Source of the DNA: Prochlorococcus sp. AG-459-B06
Lineage (GTDB): Bacteria > Cyanobacteriota > Cyanobacteriia > PCC-6307 > Cyanobiaceae
Length of the DNA stretch: 36,153 nucleotides
Assembly (NCBI GenBank): GCA_003209475.1
Contig: QCQY01000012.1
Coordinates: forward strand, 1-36,153
Direction of reading: 5' to 3'
Below, piece after piece: positions 14,141-36,153 of the stretch. The position numbers and the translations under genes were made by a program. The notes beneath the pieces are model-generated. The model worked only from the letters and a program-made list of their open reading frames with translations, did not search any database and was not told the origin of the DNA. Position 1 is the stretch's first letter. Each line of letters opens with the position of its first letter.

Positions 14141-15124
14141 ATGAAAAAAAACAATAATTTTAATACTCCAATCTTAATAATAGCTTGGAGAAGACCAAAG
14201 CAAACTCAAGAATTAATTAATAAAGTTAAACTTATCAATCCAAAAAATTTATATATTGCTTGTGATGGGCCTAGACAAGATAACGAAGAAGATAAAAAGA
14301 AAGTTAAACATACTAGAGAGATTCTTTTAAAAAGTTTTGAAAAAGAAACTTCAAAAAAGTATCTTTTTAGTGATAATAATCAGGGTTGTAAAGTTGGAGT
14401 AACTAATGCAATAAATTGGATGTTTAAGTACGAGAAAGAGGGGATAATTTTAGAAGATGATTGTATACCTCATTTAGATTTTTTTATTTTTTGTCAGGAG
14501 ATGCTTGAAACCTACAAAAATGATTATAGAATTTGGTCAATAACTGGACATAATCAACAAAGAAATATTCAAGTTGGAAATGGGACATACTACTTTAGTA
14601 AATTTCCTCGAAGTTGGGGCTGGGCAACATGGAAAAGATCTTGGGAAAAATATGATAGAGATATAACTGATTGGCCACAAATTAAAACAAAAGGTATTTT
14701 AAAAAATAAACTTATATCTAGAAGAGAATTAAAATTCTGGGAAAAAATCTTAGATAAAATATACTATTATAATTCGCCGAATACTTGGGACTATCAATGG
14801 TCACTAAGTGCTTTTTTGAACTCTGGATTAACAATTGTTCCAAATAAAAATCTTATCCAAAATATTGGTTTTGATGAAGACGCAACTCATACTTTTTTGG
14901 GTAAAGCAGATAATATTATTGATATAGATAAAGAAAATAGCAACAGAATTTTTCCAACTAAACATCCTGATTATTTTGTAATTAATAAAAAAGCTGATGA
15001 TTTGGTAGATATTTTGGAATATTCAGGTGGGAATAGATTTTCCAAAGTATATATTTTCAAGAAGATAAAAAATTTAAAATTAAAAGTTTTCAAATTTATA
15101 GAAACTTTTTTAAATCTAAAATGA
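14141..15124 (+). CDS. GT-A fold glycosyltransferase (GNT-I/GT2-like)
   Basis: 327 residues. The N-terminus TPILIIAWRRPKQTQELI is the first nucleotide-binding strand, then YIACDGPR, and the metal motif ILEDDCIPHLDFF near residue 108. The segment SKFPRSWGWATWKRSWEKYD (about 150-170) marks a family of bacterial glycosyltransferases related to GNT-I and often found in polysaccharide loci. The C-terminal tail is basic and amphipathic. It follows the GT25-like gene after 19 bp and overlaps the next by 4 bp. The sugar is unknown. Confidence 0.82.
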   Translation: MKKNNNFNTPILIIAWRRPKQTQELINKVKLINPKNLYIACDGPRQDNEEDKKKVKHTREILLKSFEKETSKKYLFSDNNQGCKVGVTNAINWMFKYEKEGIILEDDCIPHLDFFIFCQEMLETYKNDYRIWSITGHNQQRNIQVGNGTYYFSKFPRSWGWATWKRSWEKYDRDITDWPQIKTKGILKNKLISRRELKFWEKILDKIYYYNSPNTWDYQWSLSAFLNSGLTIVPNKNLIQNIGFDEDATHTFLGKADNIIDIDKENSNRIFPTKHPDYFVINKKADDLVDILEYSGGNRFSKVYIFKKIKNLKLKVFKFIETFLNLK

Positions 15125-16383
15125 TTAGGATCTTACATCTTTCTTATAGCGATGGAATGACAGGGGCAGGTATTGCTGCTAAAAGAATACATCAATGTAT
15201 TGCTGATTACGATAAGTCAAGTATTAAAAGTTTTTTCATCTCAAATACCCATGGAATTAAAAATATAAAAACTTGTAGAAAAAAAAAGTTATTTCCAAAA
15301 TTTTATAACTTTTTTAAAAAATATTTTGAGAGAATTATTATTAAAATAATTAAGTATGAAGACAATGTTTTTCATTCTGTTTCTGTTTTTCCAACTCTAA
15401 AGCATCATGAAATAAATAAATTAGATATTGATATTGTTCATATGCATTGGGTACAACATGAAACGATCTCTATTGAAGAAATAGGCAAAATAAAGTTTCC
15501 TATAGTTTGGACACTTCATGATTGTTGGCCTTTTAGTAGTACTGAACATTATCAAAAAGATAAATTTGATGAAAGATATATGAATGAATATAAAATAAAA
15601 AAGCGATTTAATTTTTCTGAATATATTGATAAATTATGTTTTCTCAGAAAAAAATTTAGTTGGAAAAATAATATTAGTTTAATAGCTCCCAGTAAATGGA
15701 TTGCTAATTGTGCTTTAAGATCATCCTTAATGAAGGATAAAAAATTAGAAATTATTCCAAATCCAATAGATACGGAAATATTTAAACCAATCAACAAAAA
15801 TAATGCTAGAAAAACCTTAAAAATTAACAAAGACAAAAAAGTTATTTTGTTTGGGAGTATTGATGGAGGTATAGACCCAAGAAAAGGAGCAGATCTTCTG
15901 AAAAATGTCTTAGATATTTTAAGAATTACAAAAAAAGATTTTCAACTGGTTATTTTTGGGGGGGGAAGTAGAAATCAAAATATATTTAACAATAATTATT
16001 TTGAAATTATTCACTTGGGCAAAATAAAATCAATTAATAAGATGGCTACAATATATTCTGCAGCAGATATATTTGTTATTCCATCGAGAATTGAATCATT
16101 TGGCCAAACTGCCTCGGAAGCTCAAAGTTGCGGAACACCAGTGATTGGATTTGATATTGGTGGATTGAAAGATATTGTAGTTAATAAAGAAAGTGGTTTA
16201 TTAATTGAGCCATATAATTGTGAGAAAATGGCCAAGGGTATAGAAGATATTTTAAGTGATGAAAATAAAATTTCTAAATTTTCTGAGGCATCTAGAGCTA
16301 ATGCTTTGAAGAAATTTAATTATAAGAAAGTAGCAATGTCACATTTAGTCTTTTATCAAAATATCTTAAATTATGGCAAATAA
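15121..16383 (+). CDS. GT4-family glycosyltransferase
   Basis: 420 residues with two Rossmann-like halves (GT-B). The N-terminal half begins MIRILHLSYSDGMTGAGIAA and contains WTLHDCWPFSSTEHY. The C-terminal half contains ILFGSIDGGIDPRKGADLL, the late E-x7-E-type segment IESFGQTASEAQSCGTPVIG (about residues 325-345), and IVVNKESGLLIEP. These are standard GT4 elements for retaining transfer from a nucleotide sugar. It overlaps both neighbours, by 4 bp upstream and 11 bp downstream. Confidence 0.9.
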   Translation: MIRILHLSYSDGMTGAGIAAKRIHQCIADYDKSSIKSFFISNTHGIKNIKTCRKKKLFPKFYNFFKKYFERIIIKIIKYEDNVFHSVSVFPTLKHHEINKLDIDIVHMHWVQHETISIEEIGKIKFPIVWTLHDCWPFSSTEHYQKDKFDERYMNEYKIKKRFNFSEYIDKLCFLRKKFSWKNNISLIAPSKWIANCALRSSLMKDKKLEIIPNPIDTEIFKPINKNNARKTLKINKDKKVILFGSIDGGIDPRKGADLLKNVLDILRITKKDFQLVIFGGGSRNQNIFNNNYFEIIHLGKIKSINKMATIYSAADIFVIPSRIESFGQTASEAQSCGTPVIGFDIGGLKDIVVNKESGLLIEPYNCEKMAKGIEDILSDENKISKFSEASRANALKKFNYKKVAMSHLVFYQNILNYGK

Positions 16384-21151: not shown

Positions 21152-22591
21152 ATGTGCGGTTTTATAATTTCAATATCAAAAAAAGAAATTTCTAATTCTG
21201 ACCTTTTGAAAGCAAATTCATTGATTTCAAGTAGAGGACCTGATCAAACAAATAGATTAAGTTTCAAAAAAGATGGATATTATTATCAATCTATTCATAA
21301 TCTTTTAGATATTTCGAATTTTTTTATATCTCAGCCTATTTTTACAGATTTAAAAAATTTGTTATTATTTAATGGTGAAATATATAATCCTCAAAACAAC
21401 AAACCTGATACTTTAAATTTATACGATGAATTAACAAATAATAATTTATCAAATTATTTAAAAAATGCCAGAGGTGAATACGCCATTTGTACCGTAAATA
21501 TAGAAAAAAAAATAATCTCAATTTACACAGATTTAATAGGCACTAAACCAATCTTCATTGGTACTAGGAATGACTCAATTTGCATATCTTCCTATAAGTC
21601 TGCAATATCTAATTTACTTTATGATGAAATTAAAGAAGTCCCTCCAAATAAAAAAATTGAAATAAAATATATTAATTTAGAAAGTCCAGAAATTAGTTAT
21701 GAAGATTTTTTTATTCTCGATCTTAATCAATTCAAATCAACATATGATTCATGGATTGAAGTCTTTAAAATAAGTGTAAAAGAAAGATCAGTTCATTTTA
21801 AATCTAAAATTTGCGTACCTTTATCATCGGGTTATGATTCAGGAGCAATATGTTGCGTATTAAATAAATTAAAAATTCCATACTCAACTGTTACTGTTGG
21901 TAATGCTGAAAATAAGGCTATTCTAAAAAAAAGAATATCGATTAATAAAAAATTTTCATGTATAAAACATTATCAAATTCCTGCACTTACAAAAAATGAA
22001 TCAGCAAAAGTTTCCTTATTTTTAAAAGATAAATTAGGCAATATAAAATATGATCATAAAGATACACCCCAAAAAGAAGCAATTATGTTGCATGAAGATG
22101 GAGGAGCTTTAGGTTTAGCAGTTCTATGTAAAGAGATGTCTAGTAAAGGATTCAATGTAATAATCTCAGGTGGAGGAGCAGATGAAATAATTTCAGATTA
22201 TGGCTTTAATGGTAAAAAGATTTATTCGCATTCTGAATTTGGCGGTAAATTTCCAAAAAATCTAGAAACAATTTTTCCTTGGAAAAAATTCTATGGTGAT
22301 AGTCAAAGAAGTTATTTAAAAAAAGACGAAATGGTTTCTGGTTTATATGGAATAGAAGGAAGATATCCTTTTTTAGATTTAAACGTTATTCAGGAGTTTC
22401 TCAATTTAAGTTCTGAATTGAAAAATGAAAAATATAAATCCTGCATATCAGAGTTTTTAGAACGTGAAAACTATCCTTTTGAAAAAAATTCGAAAGAAGG
22501 ATTTAATCCTATGAAGTCTAATCTAAGTATCTTAAAAAAATTATTCATTAAGTCAAAAAAATTATTAGAAACCATATCACTTTTAAATTGA
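21152..22591 (+). CDS. Asparagine-synthetase-like glutamine amidotransferase
   Basis: 479 residues with the two AsnB domains. N-terminal class II glutaminase: catalytic Cys2 (MCGF), SRGPD near residue 30, FNGEIYN near residue 72. C-terminal ATP-pyrophosphatase synthetase domain: PLSSGYDSGAICCVL near residue 223 and SGGGADEIISDYGF near 340. It is shorter than housekeeping AsnB (about 550-630 aa). The arginine of the usual RLSIVD segment, which holds the glutamine carboxylate, is not seen; the aligned stretch reads HNLLDIS. In sugar loci such proteins (for example WbpS-type) can amidate a uronic acid, which fits a UDP-glucuronate-making locus, but that is inference. Confidence 0.82.
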   Translation: MCGFIISISKKEISNSDLLKANSLISSRGPDQTNRLSFKKDGYYYQSIHNLLDISNFFISQPIFTDLKNLLLFNGEIYNPQNNKPDTLNLYDELTNNNLSNYLKNARGEYAICTVNIEKKIISIYTDLIGTKPIFIGTRNDSICISSYKSAISNLLYDEIKEVPPNKKIEIKYINLESPEISYEDFFILDLNQFKSTYDSWIEVFKISVKERSVHFKSKICVPLSSGYDSGAICCVLNKLKIPYSTVTVGNAENKAILKKRISINKKFSCIKHYQIPALTKNESAKVSLFLKDKLGNIKYDHKDTPQKEAIMLHEDGGALGLAVLCKEMSSKGFNVIISGGGADEIISDYGFNGKKIYSHSEFGGKFPKNLETIFPWKKFYGDSQRSYLKKDEMVSGLYGIEGRYPFLDLNVIQEFLNLSSELKNEKYKSCISEFLERENYPFEKNSKEGFNPMKSNLSILKKLFIKSKKLLETISLLN

Positions 22592-24489
22592 TGTACATAA
22601 ATAAGATAAAAAATTTTCTTCACGGTAAAAGGATAGGAAAAAAAGGAAGAGTATTTTTACTTATGACCATGGATGCAGTCCTTATTTTTCTATCTGTATC
22701 AATTGTTTTTTTTATTCTAAGGAATGAGATTCTATACCCTGTTATTCCTGTGAGTAAATGGTTGATACCAACTATTATTTTAATTGGTTTACCATTTTAT
22801 ATTTTCAGTAATCAATATAAAAGTCTTACGAGATATGTTGGAGCAAAATCTTTCTTTTTATTAACTTGTAGAAATGGGATTTTACTTCTAATAATATCAT
22901 TCTTTTCTAATTTTTTTGGATTGCCTAGACCTTCAAATAGTAGCTGGATTCTTATTTGGTTTACACTCTCCACACTAACAAGTTTAACAAGACTATTAGC
23001 AAGAGATATATTAGTGAATTTCGATAAATCAAAATTAAAAGTCAAAAGAATTGCTATTTATGGATCAGGAACTGAAGCTATTCAATTAGCTGCTTCTCTA
23101 AAAATTTCTAAAACTTATGAAATAATATGCTTCATAGAGGATCTAAAAGCTTTACATAATAGAACTATTTGGGATCTGCCTATTAAATCAATTGAATATA
23201 TTGATAAAATTAATAATATTGACGAGATTTTTCTTGCTAAGCCAAGCCTAAACAAAGAAACAATTAGAAAAGTTTATTTAAAGGCAAAAAAGAAAAATAT
23301 CGGCATTTCTGAAATACCTTCAATTGAAGATATTACAACAGGAAAGACGAAAATTGATTCTTTGAAACCCATTTCAATAGAGAGCTTACTTGGGAGAGAT
23401 GAAATATATGTAAATCTAGAATACGCAAAATCTGTTATCGAAAACAAGTCTATCTGTGTAACAGGTTCAGGAGGATCAATAGGTTCTGAATTATGTGAAC
23501 AGATAATTAAATTAAAACCCAAAAAAATTATTTTGTTTGAACAAAGTGAGATTAATTTGTATAAATTATTAGAAAAATTAAAAGACAGTACTACAAAAAA
23601 CTCACAATTAATTCCAATATTAGGTTCTGCAAATAATCTCTTCTTATTAGAAAAAGTTTTAAAAAATGAAAATATTGAAGTTATTTTTCATACAGCAGCT
23701 TATAAACATGTTCCATTGGTTGAAAGTAATCCTATTTCAGGAATAGAGAATAATGTTTTAACTACTCTTACTGTTTGCAAGGCAGCTTTAAAGACAAAAG
23801 CTAAACAGGTGATATTAGTTTCTACAGATAAAGCGGTAAGGCCTAGCAATGTTATGGGTGCATCTAAGAGACTAGCAGAAATAATTTTCCAAGCATTTGC
23901 ATCTGAAGAAACTAGTCTAGGTAAAGCGGATAAAGATTATATTCCAACTCTATTTTCAATTGTAAGGTTTGGGAACGTATTGGCTTCGTCGGGATCAGTT
24001 GTACCACTTTTTAAAAGACAAATTAATAATGGTGGGCCTATTACATTAACCCATAGAGACATTGTTAGATATTTTATGACAATTAAAGAAGCCGTAAGGC
24101 TAATTTTAATAACAACAACAATGACAAATGGTGGAGATGTATTTTTGTTAGATATGGGAGAGCCAGTAAAAATATTTTCTTTAGCAGAGCAAATGATTAA
24201 ATTAAGTGGTTTAACAATCAAAAACAAAGAAAATCCAGAAGGTGATATTGAAATTTTAGAGACAGGTTTAAGACCAGGAGAGAAGCTTTTTGAAGAGTTA
24301 CTAATTAATGCTGAAGCGATCCAAACTGAACATCCACTTATATATAGAGCTAATGAAAATTATATTGAATATGATGAATTAATAGTAAAATTAAAACTTT
24401 TAGAGAAAGCAATTAATCAAAATAATTTGAAAGAAGTATTAAAAAATCTCTCAATTTTAGTTCCAGAATGGAAAGCAAATTATAGATAA
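22591..24489 (+). CDS. Membrane-bound nucleotide-sugar 4,6-dehydratase/epimerase (PglF/FlaA1/CapD family)
   Basis: About 632 residues. The N-terminus has four hydrophobic segments (roughly 20-42, 52-73, 88-108, 115-135). A first Rossmann-like domain follows (KRIAIYGSGTEAIQLAASL), then an SDR catalytic domain (CVTGSGGSIGSELCEQI near 290). The active-site region STDKAVRPSNVMGASKR has the TDK and Met-x3-Lys form typical of this family's long dehydratases, which act on UDP-GlcNAc and start routes to diamino or deoxyamino sugars. I use ATG 22591, overlapping the previous stop by one base (TGATG); TTG at 22588 would add one residue. With the WecA-like protein it suggests an amino-deoxysugar in the glycan. 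Confidence 0.91.
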   Translation: MYINKIKNFLHGKRIGKKGRVFLLMTMDAVLIFLSVSIVFFILRNEILYPVIPVSKWLIPTIILIGLPFYIFSNQYKSLTRYVGAKSFFLLTCRNGILLLIISFFSNFFGLPRPSNSSWILIWFTLSTLTSLTRLLARDILVNFDKSKLKVKRIAIYGSGTEAIQLAASLKISKTYEIICFIEDLKALHNRTIWDLPIKSIEYIDKINNIDEIFLAKPSLNKETIRKVYLKAKKKNIGISEIPSIEDITTGKTKIDSLKPISIESLLGRDEIYVNLEYAKSVIENKSICVTGSGGSIGSELCEQIIKLKPKKIILFEQSEINLYKLLEKLKDSTTKNSQLIPILGSANNLFLLEKVLKNENIEVIFHTAAYKHVPLVESNPISGIENNVLTTLTVCKAALKTKAKQVILVSTDKAVRPSNVMGASKRLAEIIFQAFASEETSLGKADKDYIPTLFSIVRFGNVLASSGSVVPLFKRQINNGGPITLTHRDIVRYFMTIKEAVRLILITTTMTNGGDVFLLDMGEPVKIFSLAEQMIKLSGLTIKNKENPEGDIEILETGLRPGEKLFEELLINAEAIQTEHPLIYRANENYIEYDELIVKLKLLEKAINQNNLKEVLKNLSILVPEWKANYR

Positions 24490-29787: not shown

Positions 29788-29891
29788 AAAACCCACAAAT
29801 TACCAAACTATTTAAAGAATTACAAATTTCTCTAAAATTATTATTAATTCATTAGAATAAAATATAATTTAATTCAGTTTTGTTTTGGTTA

Positions 29892-30615
29892 ATGAATAAA
29901 AAACATATTTGGACAGATGAACAAATAACAACATTTTGGAATTATGAATCTAGATTTCCAGAGAATTATTGGTCAAGAACTTTTGGAAAGGATTTAATTA
30001 GAAAATATGCAAATTATTTAAATGAAAAAAAAATAATATTAGATCTTGGATGTGGTGATGGGGGATTAATAGAATCACTTATTCCATTTGCACAAAAAAA
30101 TTTAATAAATTCTAAAATTTTCGGGATTGATACTTCTGATTCTTCTATTAAAAAAATAAACAAGAAATTCTCGCAAAACAGTTACTTTGGAGAGGCGATT
30201 TTATCTACAGATAAAAAAGTTTAACATATTGAATGGGGCTTTAGATTTTATTTTTTGTTGCGAAGTAATAGAACATCTTTATGAAAAAAATTTAACTAAA
30301 CTTTTCAAAACTGCAAAATCCCTACTAAACGATAAAGGATTAATATTGTTTACAAATCCAAATAATGAAGATTTACAAAAATCATTAATATGCAATCCAA
30401 TAGATGGCTCACTTTTTCATAGATGGCAACATGTTAGATCATGGAATAGAAGCTCTCTTACAAAAAAACTTGAGGAATTTAACTTTGAAACTTTTAATGT
30501 AATTGAAACTAATACATGGTGGTGGTCTAAATTTCCCAAGAATTTAATAAATCGATGGAGATATAGAGAAAGGGGAAGTTTATTCATTTTGGCAAAAAAA
30601 AGAATTATTAATTAA
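29892..30615 (+). pseudogene. SAM-dependent methyltransferase broken by a frameshift
   Basis: Two frames together make one Methyltransf_11/23-type protein of about 240 residues. The first (ATG 29892) has ILDLGCGDGGLIESLIPFA, motif I, and IFGIDTSDSSIKKINK, but stops at 30222-30224. The second continues with FNILNGALDFIFCCEVIEHL, the expected LDFIxxxEVIEHL segment, then SLLNDKGLILFTNPNNED and a WWWSKF tail, ending at 30615. The break is at a run of six A (30213-30218): removing one base, or a +1 shift, joins TDKK to FNILNG. Either a recent pseudogene, a sequencing error, or recoding. A TTG at 29880 could add four residues at the front. Confidence 0.85.
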
Positions 30616-30649
30616 GATTTTTAGATAGTTTAATTCTATATCTTCTTAA
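30612..30649. terminator. Weak candidate terminator between convergent genes
   Basis: TTAAGA (30612-30617) and TCTTAA (30644-30649) plus imperfect inner pairing (AGATAG with CTATATCT) form an interrupted hairpin over the tail-to-tail junction. AT-rich and imperfect. Confidence 0.25.
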
Positions 30650-31730
30650 GAATCTGGAAATTTTTAGGTAAGAATTGAACAAAAATTAAAAAAGGTAATA
30701 AAGGATATAGATACCTCATATGTGCTGTCCCATAAAGAGTTGGCAAAAGTATTGAAAAAGGAAATAATAAAGTCAGTTTTCTTATATCAAAATCTTTAGA
30801 AATATAAATTAAAAGTCTTATTAAAAGAAAAGAATGGAAAAGTAAAAACAAAAATGTTGTTAATAAATTAATAAAGTTATTTGAAGCATATTCAGAAGGT
30901 AGATTTAAGCAATATATAGCTATTCCCTCTCTAGCACCTAAATTTAAAATTAAATGGACTATAGGTGTAAAAATTAGACTTAATATCTTACTTAAATTGG
31001 GACTTATAATTTCTTGAAAAAATTTATCTATATTTTCGTATGAATAGCAACCAAAATTTTGCGATATATATTCAACACCATAAAAAATTTGAGAAGAGGT
31101 AAAAGATAATGTTAAGAGAAATAGAGAGAATATTCCAAGAAGTTTAATTTTAGTAAAATCTCGCTTGAATAAAAAAATCAAGAAAAATTGGATCCATAAT
31201 AATGGGATTAATGCATTCCTGAAAAGGGTACAAAAAACATTGAATATTATTGATAAATTGAAAGTATATTTATTCGAACAAAATATCCATAATGCATATA
31301 CTGAAACTCCTAAAGTTGCAAAAAGATTTGAATCTAATTTTAATGAATATAAAGCTAAATATGGATGGATAGATAAAAGGATAATAAAATAAAAGGAATT
31401 TTTTTTAGAAAGAAATTTTATACATAAAAATAAAAAAGGAGAAATTGTAATAAAGGATATTATGAAAGATATAAAAATAAACTTAAAGGACAATAAAGTT
31501 TCTGAATTATATCCAATTATCCTTACAAAAAAGCTATAAAAGAAATTTGATGAAAAAATATTTAAATTGCTTTTACTATAAACTTCTAAATCAGTAAAAG
31601 AAAAGATCCTAGTGTCATAAATTGAAAGAAATTTAAAAATTATTAAAGCGCTTAATGTCCTAAAGAAGAAAAATATACTTGATAATATAAAAAACTCTTT
31701 GAAGGTTTCATTTTTTATTCTGATTATCAT
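30636..31730 (-). CDS. Polytopic membrane protein, GT-C glycosyltransferase-like
   Basis: 364 residues with about nine to ten hydrophobic segments. An acidic site follows the first membrane helix (DTRIFSFTDLEVYSKS, near residues 39-54), as in GT-C enzymes that use polyprenyl-phosphate sugars outside the membrane. LSIHPYLALYSLKLDSNLFA and the late AHMRYLYPLLPFLIFVQFLP also have a GT-C/PMT-like look. The next gene upstream on this strand is GtrA-like (41 bp), supporting a Gtr-style system. Family membership is by pattern only; a Wzy-like polymerase is the main alternative. Confidence 0.6.
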   Translation of the reverse strand: MIIRIKNETFKEFFILSSIFFFFRTLSALIIFKFLSIYDTRIFSFTDLEVYSKSNLNIFSSNFFYSFFVRIIGYNSETLLSFKFIFISFIISFITISPFLFLCIKFLSKKNSFYFIILLSIHPYLALYSLKLDSNLFATLGVSVYALWIFCSNKYTFNLSIIFNVFCTLFRNALIPLLWIQFFLIFLFKRDFTKIKLLGIFSLFLLTLSFTSSQIFYGVEYISQNFGCYSYENIDKFFQEIISPNLSKILSLIFTPIVHLILNLGAREGIAIYCLNLPSEYASNNFINLLTTFLFLLFHSFLLIRLLIYISKDFDIRKLTLLFPFSILLPTLYGTAHMRYLYPLLPFLIFVQFLPKNFQILKKI

Positions 31731-31771: not shown

Positions 31772-32143
31772 TTATTTTCTAAAAACTAGATATTTTTGAC
31801 TAACAAAAGAGAACAATACTAGAAAAGGGATAACAATAATAACTGAAAAGATGTAAGAAAAACCTAAATTACTTAAGGTCTTTATCAAGAACCATTGCAG
31901 AAGCCAACTTACTATTACCAAGAGTATATAGGCAATAGGTTTACCTTTTCTTTTAAATACACTGTATTTATTAGCTAAGTAGCCCAAATAAGCATGAAAA
32001 ATTCTACTAAGAAAAGTTGATAAACCTAGAGGTAATACATAAAGCATTAAAAGAAGAGAACCATTACTTAAAATGGTTATTAAGCCACCTAGAAAAACAA
32101 ATTTTATAAAAGAGTTTAGTTTTAGAATTTTTAAATTATTCAT
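31772..32143 (-). CDS. GtrA-like small membrane protein
   Basis: 123 residues with four hydrophobic segments. The GtrA hallmarks are present: KFVFLGGLITILSNGSLLL in helix 1, the polar NKYSVFKRK after helix 2 and the C-terminal FSFVSQKYLVFR. GtrA proteins are thought to flip polyprenyl-phosphate sugar, made by GtrB, to the outer face where a GT-C enzyme uses it. A GtrB-type enzyme is at 24.5 kb and a GT-C-like protein is the adjacent gene. Both gene ends are clear: ATG start and a TAA just before the downstream GT-C-like start. Confidence 0.8.
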   Translation of the reverse strand: MNNLKILKLNSFIKFVFLGGLITILSNGSLLLMLYVLPLGLSTFLSRIFHAYLGYLANKYSVFKRKGKPIAYILLVIVSWLLQWFLIKTLSNLGFSYIFSVIIVIPFLVLFSFVSQKYLVFRK

Positions 32144-32200: not shown

Positions 32201-33274
32201 TTAAAAAATATCGAAATCAGCCATATTAATTTTCCATTTATTTATATCAAATATTTGAGATGAAGTTTCCTCTTTTGTAACTATAAATAATTCTAATGGA
32301 GTGGGCAATAGAAATTTAGGCACTTTAGGGAATAAAAAAATTGATAAAGGGTTTGACTTCTGTATAGTTCTCAAAGATAAAATTAAATCACATTTTTGCT
32401 TTATAGCAACAGATACTAACTTGAAAAAAATTGTTAATTCTATTAAAAAATTCTTCTTTATAAGAACAATTTCCATTATCACTAATATTTCAAAACCATA
32501 TTTCTCTATCCTCCTATAAGCAACGTAACCTATAAGTTTATTTTTAAAAAATATATACTCAAAAAAATAGTTTATTTCACTATTAGAACTATACCTCCAC
32601 TGCATCCATTTTTTGCTTCTTTCTCCTTGAATAAGATTCTTTTCATAATAATTTTTTATCATTTTTTCATATTCATCATTATCAACATCCTTTTTAGAAA
32701 AATTTATTTTAGATATAAGCTGGAAATTTTTATTTAAAAATGAAAAAAAATTATAAGAAAAAGAATTTAGAAAATTTAGAATTTTAAAATTTAATTTTTT
32801 CTGAATTATTGAATTAATTATTGGGAATAATCTTAACTCAAGAGATCCAATAGGATCTAAATTTAATATCTTCTTATAAAGATTTATAGAAATTTCATTT
32901 GGTAACATTATGCCTAAATCTGATTCGGGAATATCTTTTTTTATAAAAAATTGATTTGTAAGTTTGAAAAATTTATCTAAATTTCTATTATTTTTATTTA
33001 TAAGCAAATCACAGAGATTTGCACCTTTAATTGTCTTATTTTTAAAAAAAAATTTTTTCTTTTGATAACTAATTCTAGCTATCAATTTGTCCTCGCAATA
33101 TCCATTAATTCCATAAGATAAACCTTCAGGGTTTTGTAAATATTTCCATCTCAAATGCTTCTCCTGAGATATGGGATTTTTTTTTGAGTATTCTGTTTGA
33201 CTTAATAAAGTATATTTTTTTATTATTTGATAATTTATTAATTCTTGATCAAGAATAAATTCTCTTTCGTTCAT
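32201..33274 (-). CDS. GNAT-like acyltransferase, probably double-domain
   Basis: 357 residues. EKHLRWKYLQNPEGLSYGI at residues 39-57 and a second KKWMQWRYSS near residue 220, each followed by a strand-turn-strand (CEDKLIARISYQKKKF; FKNKLIGYVAYRRIEK), look like two GNAT-type N-acyltransferase halves. The W-K/R-Y pattern is common in GNAT proteins of polysaccharide loci. It lies 6 bp after the phosphopantetheinyl transferase stop and downstream of the acyl carrier set, so an acyl-ACP or acyl-CoA donor and a sugar amine acceptor are likely. This is inference; no catalytic residue is certain. A FemAB-like role is the alternative. Confidence 0.6.
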   Translation of the reverse strand: MNEREFILDQELINYQIIKKYTLLSQTEYSKKNPISQEKHLRWKYLQNPEGLSYGINGYCEDKLIARISYQKKKFFFKNKTIKGANLCDLLINKNNRNLDKFFKLTNQFFIKKDIPESDLGIMLPNEISINLYKKILNLDPIGSLELRLFPIINSIIQKKLNFKILNFLNSFSYNFFSFLNKNFQLISKINFSKKDVDNDEYEKMIKNYYEKNLIQGERSKKWMQWRYSSNSEINYFFEYIFFKNKLIGYVAYRRIEKYGFEILVIMEIVLIKKNFLIELTIFFKLVSVAIKQKCDLILSLRTIQKSNPLSIFLFPKVPKFLLPTPLELFIVTKEETSSQIFDINKWKINMADFDIF

Positions 33275-33280
33275 AGTATT

Positions 33281-33916
33281 CTAATATACGCAAATAATAG
33301 GATTATCTATTTCTAGATTATTAGAACATGCTACAGAAATATACCAATTTTTATAATTGATAAAAAATGATTTTAGTTTATATCCATAATCCTTATTTTC
33401 TAATATATTTGTTTCTAATTTAAAATTCCATTTTGAAAGATCATTAAAAATACTTCCTTTTTGCCACTTAATTGCAGCTTCTTTTCTTACCCAAAGTTTT
33501 AGAACCTCAGAATTTAGTTGCATGCCCTCTAGATCATTCAATGATTTTTTTTCATTTTTAAAAAATCCATCCAATATTTTTTTTGCTTCAATAGACCTAT
33601 CTGATCTTTCTATATCTACTCCAATATTATGTGATGACCAGCCTATTAGCAAAATATCTCTACAATGACTAAAACTCACACAACCCATGTCTTCAGGCAA
33701 TCCCGGAGGTAATCCTGGAGGAGATTTTAAAGGAATTTCTAAAGCAGGGATTCCCAAAATATTTGACAGGGCTTCACGAACATATCCTCTTGAATGTGCA
33801 TATTGTGAAGATCTACCAGAAGATAGTTCTTTTTTCCATGCTATTTCTTGTAGAGTTATTGGTTTTAAGTAAGAATCTATTGGGACACTCCAAAGTGCAA
33901 TTAAATTTTTATTCAT
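33281..33916 (-). CDS. Sfp/HetI-type 4'-phosphopantetheinyl transferase
   Basis: Moves the phosphopantetheine arm of coenzyme A onto the serine of a carrier protein. The 211 residues contain both family motifs: GVDIE at 99-103 and WVRKEAAIK at 142-150, with CVSFSHCRD before the first. An odd PPGLPPGLPED repeat is at 67-75. It may be the cell's only such enzyme, serving fatty-acid ACP as well, or be dedicated to the adjacent carrier protein. It seems less AT-biased than its neighbours, which hints that it is core rather than accessory. Encoded 6 bp upstream of the GNAT-like gene. Confidence 0.92.
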   Translation of the reverse strand: MNKNLIALWSVPIDSYLKPITLQEIAWKKELSSGRSSQYAHSRGYVREALSNILGIPALEIPLKSPPGLPPGLPEDMGCVSFSHCRDILLIGWSSHNIGVDIERSDRSIEAKKILDGFFKNEKKSLNDLEGMQLNSEVLKLWVRKEAAIKWQKGSIFNDLSKWNFKLETNILENKDYGYKLKSFFINYKNWYISVACSNNLEIDNPIICVY

Positions 33917-33989
33917 TTGTCGAATCTAAATCAATTAAAAATATCTTTGGAAAGATAATCATAAAAATAAATATAAAAAAATTTTTAGG

Positions 33990-33995
33990 ATTATA
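33990..33995 (-). promoter_or_regulatory. Candidate -10 box of the phosphopantetheinyl transferase gene
   Basis: TATAAT on the minus strand, 73 bp before the ATG, inside the 117 bp gap separating this gene from the ketoreductase. The leader also contains a small inverted repeat (TATCTT/AAGATA, 33942-33957). No clear -35. This would give the transferase its own transcription. Confidence 0.35.
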
Positions 33996-34033
33996 AATTT
34001 TAATTTTGAAAGTTTGATTATTAAAAATAACAT

Positions 34034-34711
34034 TTATTTACCACCATTTAGTTTAAGTACTTCTCCATTATAAAAGTCTGATTTTTGAATAAATTTTATA
34101 GCATGAATTATGTCATCTGTTACACCAAGTCTTCTAATAGATGTATTAGAAATTATATTTTTAATTTTTTCTTGATTAAAACTCTCTATTAATCCTTTTT
34201 CAAAGTAACCTAATTCAATTATATTAGAAGTAATCCCAAACCTTCCATATTCTTTTGATAAAGTTTTACTGTAACCAATAAGAGCAGACTTACTTGCGGC
34301 ATATATTCCAGCACCTGTAGCTCCTTCATTACCAACAATTGAAGAAAAGTGGATAATTCTTCCCCATTTTTGATTTATCATCATTGGTAGAAGAGCTTGT
34401 ACTAAATAAAGGTTTGAGAAAAAATTCAATTCAAACGTCTCTCTAACTTTTTCTATTGGATAGTTTGCTAATAATCCATCAAAACTTTTTACTGCAAGAT
34501 TAAGAACTGTTATTTGATCTAAATTTTCTTTGTTTTTATAAATTAATTGATCAATCTCTTTATGATTAAGAAGATTAACATTTACACAAATACCATTTTC
34601 ATTATTTTCTAATTTATTTCTATTACTAATTGCTATTACCTTATTTTCTAGTGATAGTTTTTTAAAAACTTCGTACCCAATCCCACCTGAAGCACCAGTT
34701 ATAATTAGCAT
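34034..34711 (-). CDS. FabG-like short-chain dehydrogenase/reductase (predicted 3-ketoacyl-ACP reductase)
   Basis: 225 residues from ATG at 34709-34711; this start puts the cofactor motif TGASGGIG at residues 5-12, whereas a start 16 codons upstream would overlap the ketosynthase gene. The catalytic serine is in IIHFSSIVGNEGA, and the YAASK motif is near residue 136. NLAV replaces the usual NNAG strand motif. A FabG role is favoured by the adjacent ketosynthase III (stop 4 bp upstream of this start, which places the ribosome site in the ketosynthase tail), so it would reduce a 3-ketoacyl-ACP to 3-hydroxyacyl-ACP. Sugar-directed SDR activity is the alternative. Confidence 0.83.
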   Translation of the reverse strand: MLIITGASGGIGYEVFKKLSLENKVIAISNRNKLENNENGICVNVNLLNHKEIDQLIYKNKENLDQITVLNLAVKSFDGLLANYPIEKVRETFELNFFSNLYLVQALLPMMINQKWGRIIHFSSIVGNEGATGAGIYAASKSALIGYSKTLSKEYGRFGITSNIIELGYFEKGLIESFNQEKIKNIISNTSIRRLGVTDDIIHAIKFIQKSDFYNGEVLKLNGGK

Positions 34712-34715
34712 ATAA

Positions 34716-35690
34716 TTACCACCTAATAATTGTAGATCCCAATGAATAACCAACACCAAAACCTATGATTAAAACCTTATCTCCAGGTAATAATTTTTTT
34801 TTCAAAACGGCATCCTTCAAAGCAATAGGAATTGAACAAGAAACAGTATTGCCCTTTTTCTCTAAATTACTATATGTTTTATTTTTTTCTATCCCTATTT
34901 TTTTACATAATAAATCCAACACCAATTTACTTGCTTGATGAAATATAAATAGATCAATATCATTTAAGGTATATCCATTTTTTTTTAAGGTTTTTTTTAA
35001 AAGTATTGGTACTTCGCTAAGTGTAAATAACAAAATTGCAGGCCCATTCATAAAAAGTTTTTGATCCTTACGCTCTAGATTGCCTCTTACACCACTTCCT
35101 TCAACAATTAATTCTCTTGCACCCTTACCATCACAGCCAAAGCTGAAATTTCCTATGGAGGAATTATAATTATCTTTTTCAACAAGACAAGCAGAAGCAG
35201 CATCACTAAAAATCATTTTGTTAGTTCTGTCATTTTGATTAATAAATTTAGAATATGTCTCAGCACAGATAATCAAGCAATTATTAATCGCTTCAGATTT
35301 CAATAGTGAAGATGCAACTGCAAGGGAATTTACAAATCCTGAACATCCTAAGTTTATATCTAAGGCAAGAATGTTGTTACTCATGGAAAGCCTTTCTTGC
35401 AAAATACAAGACGATGGTGGTAGAGCATAATCAGGAGTTTGAGTAATAAATAGCAAAGCATCTATTTCTTTAGGTTTAATATTGTATTCTTTGAAAAAAC
35501 TTTTGCATGCAAAAAACCCTAAATCCACGCTGGTTTCATCTTCATTTGCAATGTATCTTTGCAAAATTCCTGTTTTTTCTTGAACTTTGTCAACATCCCA
35601 ATCAGGATGAATAGACTTTAATTGCTCATTGTTCTGGACATTATTAGGTAAGTAATAACTAATTTTTCTTAAACTTAAACCAGTAAACAT
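34716..35690 (-). CDS. 3-oxoacyl-ACP synthase III (FabH-like)
   Basis: 324 residues of the thiolase fold. Catalytic Cys in DINLGCSGFVNSLAVA near residue 115, His in IFHQASKLV near 249 and Asn in KKGNTVSCSIPIAL near 280 form the complete Cys-His-Asn triad of ketosynthase III, so decarboxylative condensation of an acyl-CoA starter with malonyl-ACP is predicted. FTGLSLRKISYYLP opens the protein much like FabH. A separate housekeeping FabH is expected elsewhere in the genome, which makes this a dedicated copy. It is 7 bp downstream of the carrier-protein gene. Confidence 0.9.
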   Translation of the reverse strand: MFTGLSLRKISYYLPNNVQNNEQLKSIHPDWDVDKVQEKTGILQRYIANEDETSVDLGFFACKSFFKEYNIKPKEIDALLFITQTPDYALPPSSCILQERLSMSNNILALDINLGCSGFVNSLAVASSLLKSEAINNCLIICAETYSKFINQNDRTNKMIFSDAASACLVEKDNYNSSIGNFSFGCDGKGARELIVEGSGVRGNLERKDQKLFMNGPAILLFTLSEVPILLKKTLKKNGYTLNDIDLFIFHQASKLVLDLLCKKIGIEKNKTYSNLEKKGNTVSCSIPIALKDAVLKKKLLPGDKVLIIGFGVGYSLGSTIIRW

Positions 35691-35697
35691 TTAAATT

Positions 35698-35940
35698 TCA
35701 ATCTTTATAGAGATTATTTAATTTCAATACTTCTTTAATTGAATCTATACTAACGGCTTTAGATAATTCTTTTATTTCTGAGCACTTCCCATCAAGTACT
35801 TGATCCAATTTTACAAGTATTGATAAATGACCGAGAGAGTCCCATAGTGAATACCAATCTTTGTCTCCACTACTTATAGTTCCTTTTCTTAACTCTAGTG
35901 CTTCTTCAACTATTTCTACAAGTTTTTTTTCGTCTAACAT
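35698..35940 (-). CDS. Acyl carrier protein
   Basis: 80 residues. DSLGHL at 34-39 places the phosphopantetheine-accepting serine at Ser35 at the start of helix II. Acidic helices surround it (KLVEIVEEALELRKG before, LVKLDQVLDGKCSEIKEL after), with SIDSIKEVLK as the last helix. The preceding DKDWYSLW differs from the usual fatty-acid ACP sequence, as seen in specialised carriers. The ATG lies 5 bp after the upstream gene's stop. Position and size suggest it feeds the ketosynthase and reductase that follow. Confidence 0.87.
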   Translation of the reverse strand: MLDEKKLVEIVEEALELRKGTISSGDKDWYSLWDSLGHLSILVKLDQVLDGKCSEIKELSKAVSIDSIKEVLKLNNLYKD

Positions 35941-35945
35941 AAAAT

Positions 35946-36153
35946 CTAATTTGCACAGTATATATCAGTCCAACATATCAATTCACCAAACTTTTGACAA
36001 TAGTCTATACACCCATCTTTTTTTAACTTATCTAGTAATTTTAAATTGCTACTTAATTCTTTTGGTAGAAACCACTTATTATGTGAAATTCTTTTTATAT
36101 TTTTAAAATTGCTTTTTGCAATATCTATAATCTTATTTGTATTTGAAAGAGAT
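35946..36153 (-). CDS. C-terminal end of an unrecognised protein, cut by the right edge
   Basis: A stop-free minus-strand frame runs from the window edge to TAG at 35946-35948, giving the last 68 residues. The stop is 5 bp upstream of the acyl carrier protein start, so this is the preceding gene of the same operon. Visible features are a basic start (KSNFKNIKRISHNKWFLP), a helical LSSNLKLLDKLKKDG and a Cys-rich ending (CIDYCQKFGELICWTDIYCA, four Cys). I do not recognise the family. Its start lies outside the window. Confidence 0.7.
   Translation of the reverse strand, partial: SLSNTNKIIDIAKSNFKNIKRISHNKWFLPKELSSNLKLLDKLKKDGCIDYCQKFGELICWTDIYCAN

Follow-up and report, generated by a model that had tools for sequence, protein, structure and literature searches.

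Gene Content of the Locus

The DNA analyzed here, hereafter the window, is an entire contig (C12; 36,153 bases) of Prochlorococcus sp. AG-459-B06 (G000), whose 1.18 Mb assembly of 56 contigs is 75.5% complete. At the right end of the window is a cassette of genes for a putative short-acyl pathway, located within a surface-glycan island. Read along the minus strand, its order is methyltransferase, acyl carrier protein (ACP), beta-ketoacyl-ACP synthase III (KSIII), short-chain dehydrogenase/reductase (SDR), Sfp-type phosphopantetheinyl transferase (PPTase), GNAT-like protein, GtrA-like protein and membrane protein. The gaps between genes are 4–7 nt within the methyltransferase-ACP-KSIII-SDR group and between the PPTase and GNAT-like genes. 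Larger gaps separate the SDR from the PPTase (117 nt), the GNAT-like gene from the GtrA gene (57 nt) and the latter from the membrane protein gene (41 nt). A scan of the locus for promoters and terminators returned nothing beyond chance. A first-pass annotation had placed five genes, from the ACP to the GNAT-like protein, in this order on one strand; this was borne out, with all of the open reading frames (ORFs) on the minus strand, and the run was extended by one gene absent from that annotation, the methyltransferase ORF at 35946–36152.

The KSIII (34716–35690, minus strand) matched PF08545 and PF08541 far above their cut-offs, and the NCBIfam KAS III subfamily NF006829 above its cut-off. 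Its score against TIGR00747 (fabH) was 236.7, below the cut-off of 292.1, so that by score it is a KAS III and not a housekeeping FabH. Alignment to core FabHs showed that its catalytic triad, Cys116-His251-Asn281, is complete. In a KSIII tree it grouped with other accessory KSIIIs, apart from the core FabHs, with support of 100/100, while deep branching among the accessory KSIIIs was not resolved. It is 83% and 82% identical to its counterparts in two other Prochlorococcus genomes, G031 (a complete genome of 1.70 Mb in a single contig) and G058 (AG-449-J16; 81% complete), versus 30% identical to the FabH of G000 itself.

The SDR (34034–34711, minus strand) is of the FabG type. It has the YAASK motif, its best structural matches were FabG structures, and its role as a reductase of an ACP-bound substrate is predicted from these. 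Its start is likely the ATG at 34711 rather than the TTG at 34759, because homologues start at the former. The PPTase (33281–33916, minus strand) scored 33.7 bits against PF01648 (cut-off 25), and its GVDIE and WVRKEA motifs are intact. The Ser35, Cys-His-Asn triad, YAASK and Sfp-type motifs of the first-pass annotation thus all stood, while its “two-part GNAT-like” protein was recovered as GNAT-like in the C-terminal half only, in a low-confidence model.

The specialized ACP (35698–35940, minus strand) was identified from its motif, its model and its relatives, as the window protein itself had no match to PF00550 above cut-off. Its D34-S35-L36 (DSL) motif is invariant across aligned relatives, and a 36%-identical ACP from the genome G246 does match PF00550, bridging the window protein to the family. 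Its model (predicted local distance difference test score, pLDDT, 83) shows a bundle of helices in which Ser35 lies at the beginning of helix II. Judged by E-value alone, a Foldseek search with this model had no significant match; a second look at the structural matches found ACPs in nearly every row, with a best Z of 7.0, on its own an unremarkable value for a helical bundle.

The methyltransferase is the first known gene of the cassette, and the contig terminates within it. Only its C-terminal 68 amino acids are in the window (35946–36152, minus strand), and these are 73% identical to the end of a 239-residue G031 protein (L070:14499-15218) that matches PF05175, which points to a class I S-adenosylmethionine (SAM) methyltransferase of the MTS type. 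At the other end of the run, the GtrA-like, flippase-type membrane protein (31772–32143, minus strand) scored 24.5 against PF04138, near the cut-off of 26.1 that its G031 orthologue exceeds. The multi-pass membrane protein at 30636–31730 (minus strand) had no Pfam match and is GT-C-like from hydrophobicity alone; it is 81% identical in G031 and 79% in a further genome, G040, and is adjacent in G000, G031 and G040.

The genes of the run in the window include neither an elongating KAS I/II nor a dehydratase, and the product is therefore expected to be short. The ratio of nonsynonymous to synonymous substitution rates (dN/dS) was 0.08–0.29 for the cassette genes tested. This is purifying selection, and the genes tested therefore are, or once were, under constraint.

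Relation to Housekeeping Genes and Inheritance of the Cassette

G000 has a second KSIII on contig C13, 30% identical to that of the window, and a second ACP on contig C6. As the genome has this separate housekeeping FabH and ACP, the cassette is extra, and the suggestion of a dedicated set made in the first-pass annotation holds; the case that would have counted against it, in which the window ACP and ketosynthase were the only fatty-acid copies, does not apply. The window PPTase is likewise a paralogue of a core PPTase of the genus. Matches to the window PPTase were found in 217 of the 266 genomes of our genus sample; most were ~35% identical and 220 residues long, and the core paralogue is encoded at another conserved place. 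Both kinds are present in G031, G058 and G040. In the incomplete G000 assembly only the window copy was seen, most likely because of that incompleteness. We considered whether the window PPTase could be the sole housekeeping copy and rejected this, given the core paralogue elsewhere.

The full set of methyltransferase, ACP, KSIII, SDR, PPTase, GNAT-like and GtrA genes, in the same order and on the same strand, occurred only in G000, G031 and G058 (3/266), with the methyltransferase cut by contig ends in G000 and G058. In each of them the GtrA-like gene adjoins the cassette. The methyltransferase was found (E <= 1e-10) in exactly these three genomes, as was a full-length GNAT-like gene. That these two genes occur in the same three of 266 genomes, with dN/dS of 0.08–0.29, is more than chance. 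The cassette is thus co-inherited as a unit in three genomes, which is the outcome that the co-occurrence check proposed with the first-pass annotation would favor. G040 has lost five genes of the cassette; it keeps the PPTase (74% identical), a C-terminal 47-residue remnant of the GNAT-like gene, the GtrA-like gene and the GT-C-like membrane protein.

Similarity to vio-Type Systems

Pseudomonas syringae pv. tabaci 6605 has a viosamine island of vioA, vioM, vioT, vioS, vioB, vioR and acp, in which vioM is a methyltransferase, vioS a KSIII and vioR a reductase (PMC3927599). In that organism the modified viosamine is lost from a vioR mutant, and its methyl group is missing in a vioM mutant; N-(3-hydroxy-1-oxobutyl)-2-O-methylviosamine has been proposed as the product (PMC3927599). 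Like the cassette, this island and the orfA-E/orfG genes of the P. aeruginosa PAK glycosylation island (PMC3927599) have an ACP, a KSIII, a FabG-type reductase and a methyltransferase in a glycan island, a likeness of gene roles drawn from the description of the Pseudomonas sets. The methyltransferases are also similar in length (241 residues in Pseudomonas, 239 in G031). By predicted role, the cassette has the KSIII (VioS/OrfC), the dedicated ACP and the 3-oxoacyl-ACP reductase (VioR/OrfD) of a vio-type system. By analogy, its nearest functional counterpart would be the ACP/VioS/VioR/VioM portion of the P. syringae island, a system described for Pseudomonas flagella. It differs in having no VioA aminotransferase, VioB acyltransferase or flagellin, and in adding its own PPTase and the GNAT-like protein.

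A relative by sequence was found on plasmid pBGF3 of Burkholderia glumae BGR1 (L125), where a KSIII 36% identical to that of the window (97% covered) is followed by an ACP and an SDR. The Pseudomonas parallel drawn in the first-pass annotation holds, with the reported vioM, vioS, vioR, acp and vioB (PMC3927599) and with this B. glumae set. The plasmid order is vioA-KSIII-ACP-KSIII'-SDR-hexapeptide acyltransferase, beside flagellin genes, the second KSIII being unannotated and split across frames. Unlike the cassette, the set has a linked vioA, a second KSIII and a hexapeptide acyltransferase, and neither a PPTase nor a GNAT is annotated in it.

Sets closer to the vio type than the cassette are also present in two other Prochlorococcus genomes (L076 3703-7381 and L077 5411-9078), with the ACP seen in G246. 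G246 has KSIII-ACP-KSIII-SDR-hexapeptide acyltransferase, the B. glumae order, and G066 has a near copy; in both genomes DegT aminotransferases occur within the region, unlike the cassette. The window cassette is a different build. It has one KSIII, a methyltransferase and a PPTase of its own, with a GNAT-like protein at the position expected for the hexapeptide enzyme, and so is not filed here as vio type. Other accessory sets in the genus comprise KSIII-SDR-PPTase in G164 and KSIII/PPTase in G060 and G160. Taken with G246 and G066, these share with the cassette a surface-glycan setting, KSIIIs 37–42% identical and accessory PPTases; they differ from it in terminal enzyme and gene order. In G060 (L073 8596-12442), a PIG-L-type deacetylase, the accessory PPTase, the KSIII and a 293-residue protein lie side by side, the last being 30% identical to a protein beside the G160 KSIII.

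The next-best plasmid relatives of the KSIII, from Deinococcus (37%), are clustered with genes for a thioester reductase and a class III aminotransferase and, in one case, an adenylation-domain gene. Such neighbors, together with the merely putative activity of the GNAT-like protein, raise the idea that the acyl-ACP serves the synthesis of a small lipid or secondary metabolite, with the GNAT-like partner not an acyltransferase and the glycan genes mere neighbors. We consider this improbable, as all of the cassettes are within glycan islands with GtrA kept beside them, a Pfam scan of the run found no gene for adenylation, reductase or elongation functions, and the genus itself has vio-type sets.

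The GNAT-Like Protein

The orphan protein encoded at 32201–33274 (minus strand) is 357 residues long, and its identification as a proposed acyltransferase comes from a predicted structure. Nearly all of the top Foldseek matches to that model were GNATs. In a second look at the structural matches, which had the amino-sugar acetyltransferase PseH among its rows, residues 190–329 aligned to GNATs with a best Z of 9.2 over 123 residues and a root-mean-square deviation of 3.7, in a model with a pLDDT of 37. The resemblance is limited to the C-terminal half, where the order of strands and helices is compatible with a GNAT in this low-confidence model. The structure prediction called for by the first-pass annotation gave a mixed answer, as GNAT matches were obtained from a poor model of a protein whose alignment showed no P-loop. 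An internal repeat between the two halves was weak (E 0.016 in a single comparison). Overall, the GNAT label is a fair, if weakly supported, lead from the model.

Tandem GNATs of clavulanate biosynthesis (2WPW/2WPX) are similar to the window protein in length (~330–360 residues), and its C-terminal domain aligned to them with a Z of 8.0 over 128 residues of the low-confidence model. They differ in that no sequence similarity was detected and in that their P-loop motif was not seen in the window protein. Searches of the order, the phylum, viral contigs, GTDB contigs, plasmids and phages found no relatives beyond the cassette genomes. Two candidate kinships were rejected. The 357-residue GNATs of the Deinococcus KSIII clusters gave a profile E of 0.38, which is not significant, with a short aligned stretch in register, and no kinship was found with the 347-residue protein beside the G164 KSIII. 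The latter protein and those beside the G060 and G160 KSIIIs appear GNAT-like by eye and had no Pfam support.

Proposed Function and Acceptor Sugar

In our view the cassette probably encodes an additional short-acyl pathway whose dedicated role is the decoration of an envelope sugar. The special ACP would be armed at Ser35 by the Sfp-type PPTase, and on it the KSIII would condense malonyl with a short acyl-CoA, probably acetyl-CoA. The KSIII product would then be reduced by the FabG-type SDR to a 3-hydroxyacyl-ACP, a plausible product of the cassette and most simply 3-hydroxybutyryl-ACP, the chain length being one that we infer. The GNAT-like protein would then transfer the acyl group from the ACP to the acceptor sugar, most likely to an amine. 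The methyltransferase may methylate the same sugar or the acyl group, and GtrA and the neighboring membrane protein would handle the lipid-linked product or its polymer.

Several observations weigh against this proposal. The GNAT-like protein had no Pfam match up to an E of 10, so that no GNAT sequence profile recognizes it; its AlphaFold model, built from two sequences, is poor (pLDDT 37), and the CoA P-loop R/QxxGxG/A was not visible in either half when the alignment was read by eye. Given these three points, the protein could be inactive or act otherwise. A hexapeptide N-acyltransferase of the VioB/OrfE type is not among the cassette genes, and a sugar aminotransferase (VioA) was found neither in scans of the window nor near the cassette in the complete G031 genome. 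The literature yielded no Prochlorococcus glycan structure for comparison. The core PPTase could replace the accessory one, and in G058 the accessory PPTase carries a frameshift where eight C occur in a row (L071 14744-15383). Runs of at least eight C or G are rare in these AT-rich loci (seven in 927 kb), and the frameshift may be an assembly or sequencing error, or possibly phase variation. Together with G040, in which the five genes are gone and a GNAT remnant is left, this frameshift would fit a cassette that is decaying or non-functional island debris. That is very improbable in our view, as the cassette is intact in G000 and in the complete G031, and dN/dS was well below 1 for every gene tested. 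Separately, the window has an eight-G run (15958–15965) within a glycosyltransferase ORF (15121–16383), a possible slippage site.

The source of the amine on the acceptor was considered in two ways. The first keeps the same chemistry and, like the classical vio pathway and the first-pass proposal through the PglF-like dehydratase, has as acceptor a 4-amino sugar made by a nucleotide-sugar 4,6-dehydratase and an aminotransferase. The window does contain a PglF-like PF02719 protein (22588–24489) and RmlA, a core DegT-type aminotransferase was present in every genome tested, and a second was found on G000 contig C35 in a nonulosonate-like cluster. However, the PglF-like gene and the cassette are separable in both directions. 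The best PF02719 match in G058, where the cassette is present, was 1.9e-18 versus ~1e-111 in the others, and the gene, conserved in G031 and G040, is 92% identical in G040, which is without the cassette. In addition, no accessory DegT lies near the cassette in the complete G031, whose sole strong DegT is the core gene, located ~780 kb away next to a photolyase-like gene. The dehydratase route of the first-pass annotation was thus not upheld, and we regard it as unlikely.

The second has the amine exposed by PIG-L-type deacetylation of an N-acetylhexosamine, which the GNAT-like protein would then re-acylate. G031 has a PIG-L-like gene immediately before that of the methyltransferase and on its strand, and in G060 another adjoins the accessory PPTase and KSIII. 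Against this, PIG-L was not found in G000 and G058 (75% and 81% complete), the G031 gene had only weak relatives, in two unrelated genomes, and the Pfam scores of both genes were under the curated cut-off. This route we rate as doubtful, at low probability.

A more specific version of the envelope-decoration proposal is one that we put forward tentatively and hold to be unlikely. Here an orphan tandem GNAT-like enzyme would receive its acyl group directly from an ACP that is dedicated and armed separately, and would replace the hexapeptide acyltransferase. With no tie to an aminotransferase, the cassette would be a mobile decoration for various surface glycans, for example against phage.

The Surrounding Glycan Island

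The left end of the window carries PNPase and other genes in an order shared with G031, and the glycan island extends from ~7.7 kb onward. It encodes an O-antigen ligase-like protein, a UDP-glucose dehydrogenase type enzyme, RmlA, an epimerase, glycosyltransferases and a WecA-like transferase, as well as an asparagine-synthase-like protein, the PglF/CapD-like dehydratase and an ABC exporter. At 29880–30615, two overlapping ORFs (114 and 142 residues) read jointly as one frameshift-split SAM methyltransferase, either a pseudogene or an assembly error.

In G031 (L070 4977-9137) and G040 (L072 5001-9149), genes for DUF2142, HAD, methyltransferase and UbiA prenyltransferase proteins lie between a glycosyltransferase and the GT-C-like gene, and resemble a polyprenyl-phosphoribose (arabinose donor) set. 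At that place the window carries an FkbM methyltransferase and the ABC exporter, not the DUF2142/UbiA genes. NeuB-like and nucleotidyltransferase genes in the glycan islands of G000, G031 and G040 suggest nonulosonic-acid synthesis; the loci are L104 1-3921 (G000 contig C35), L091 13942-19101 and L117 15074-17781.

Implications

The hypervariable islands to which Prochlorococcus surface glycans belong are linked to phage resistance, and we found little in the literature on the chemistry of these glycans. From the six-gene acyl module described here one would expect a surface sugar bearing a short hydroxyacyl group, which may be methylated. Vio-type sets with hexapeptide enzymes occur in the genus too, so that two solutions to the last step could be compared within it. 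If active, the GNAT-like protein would represent a new acyltransferase family.

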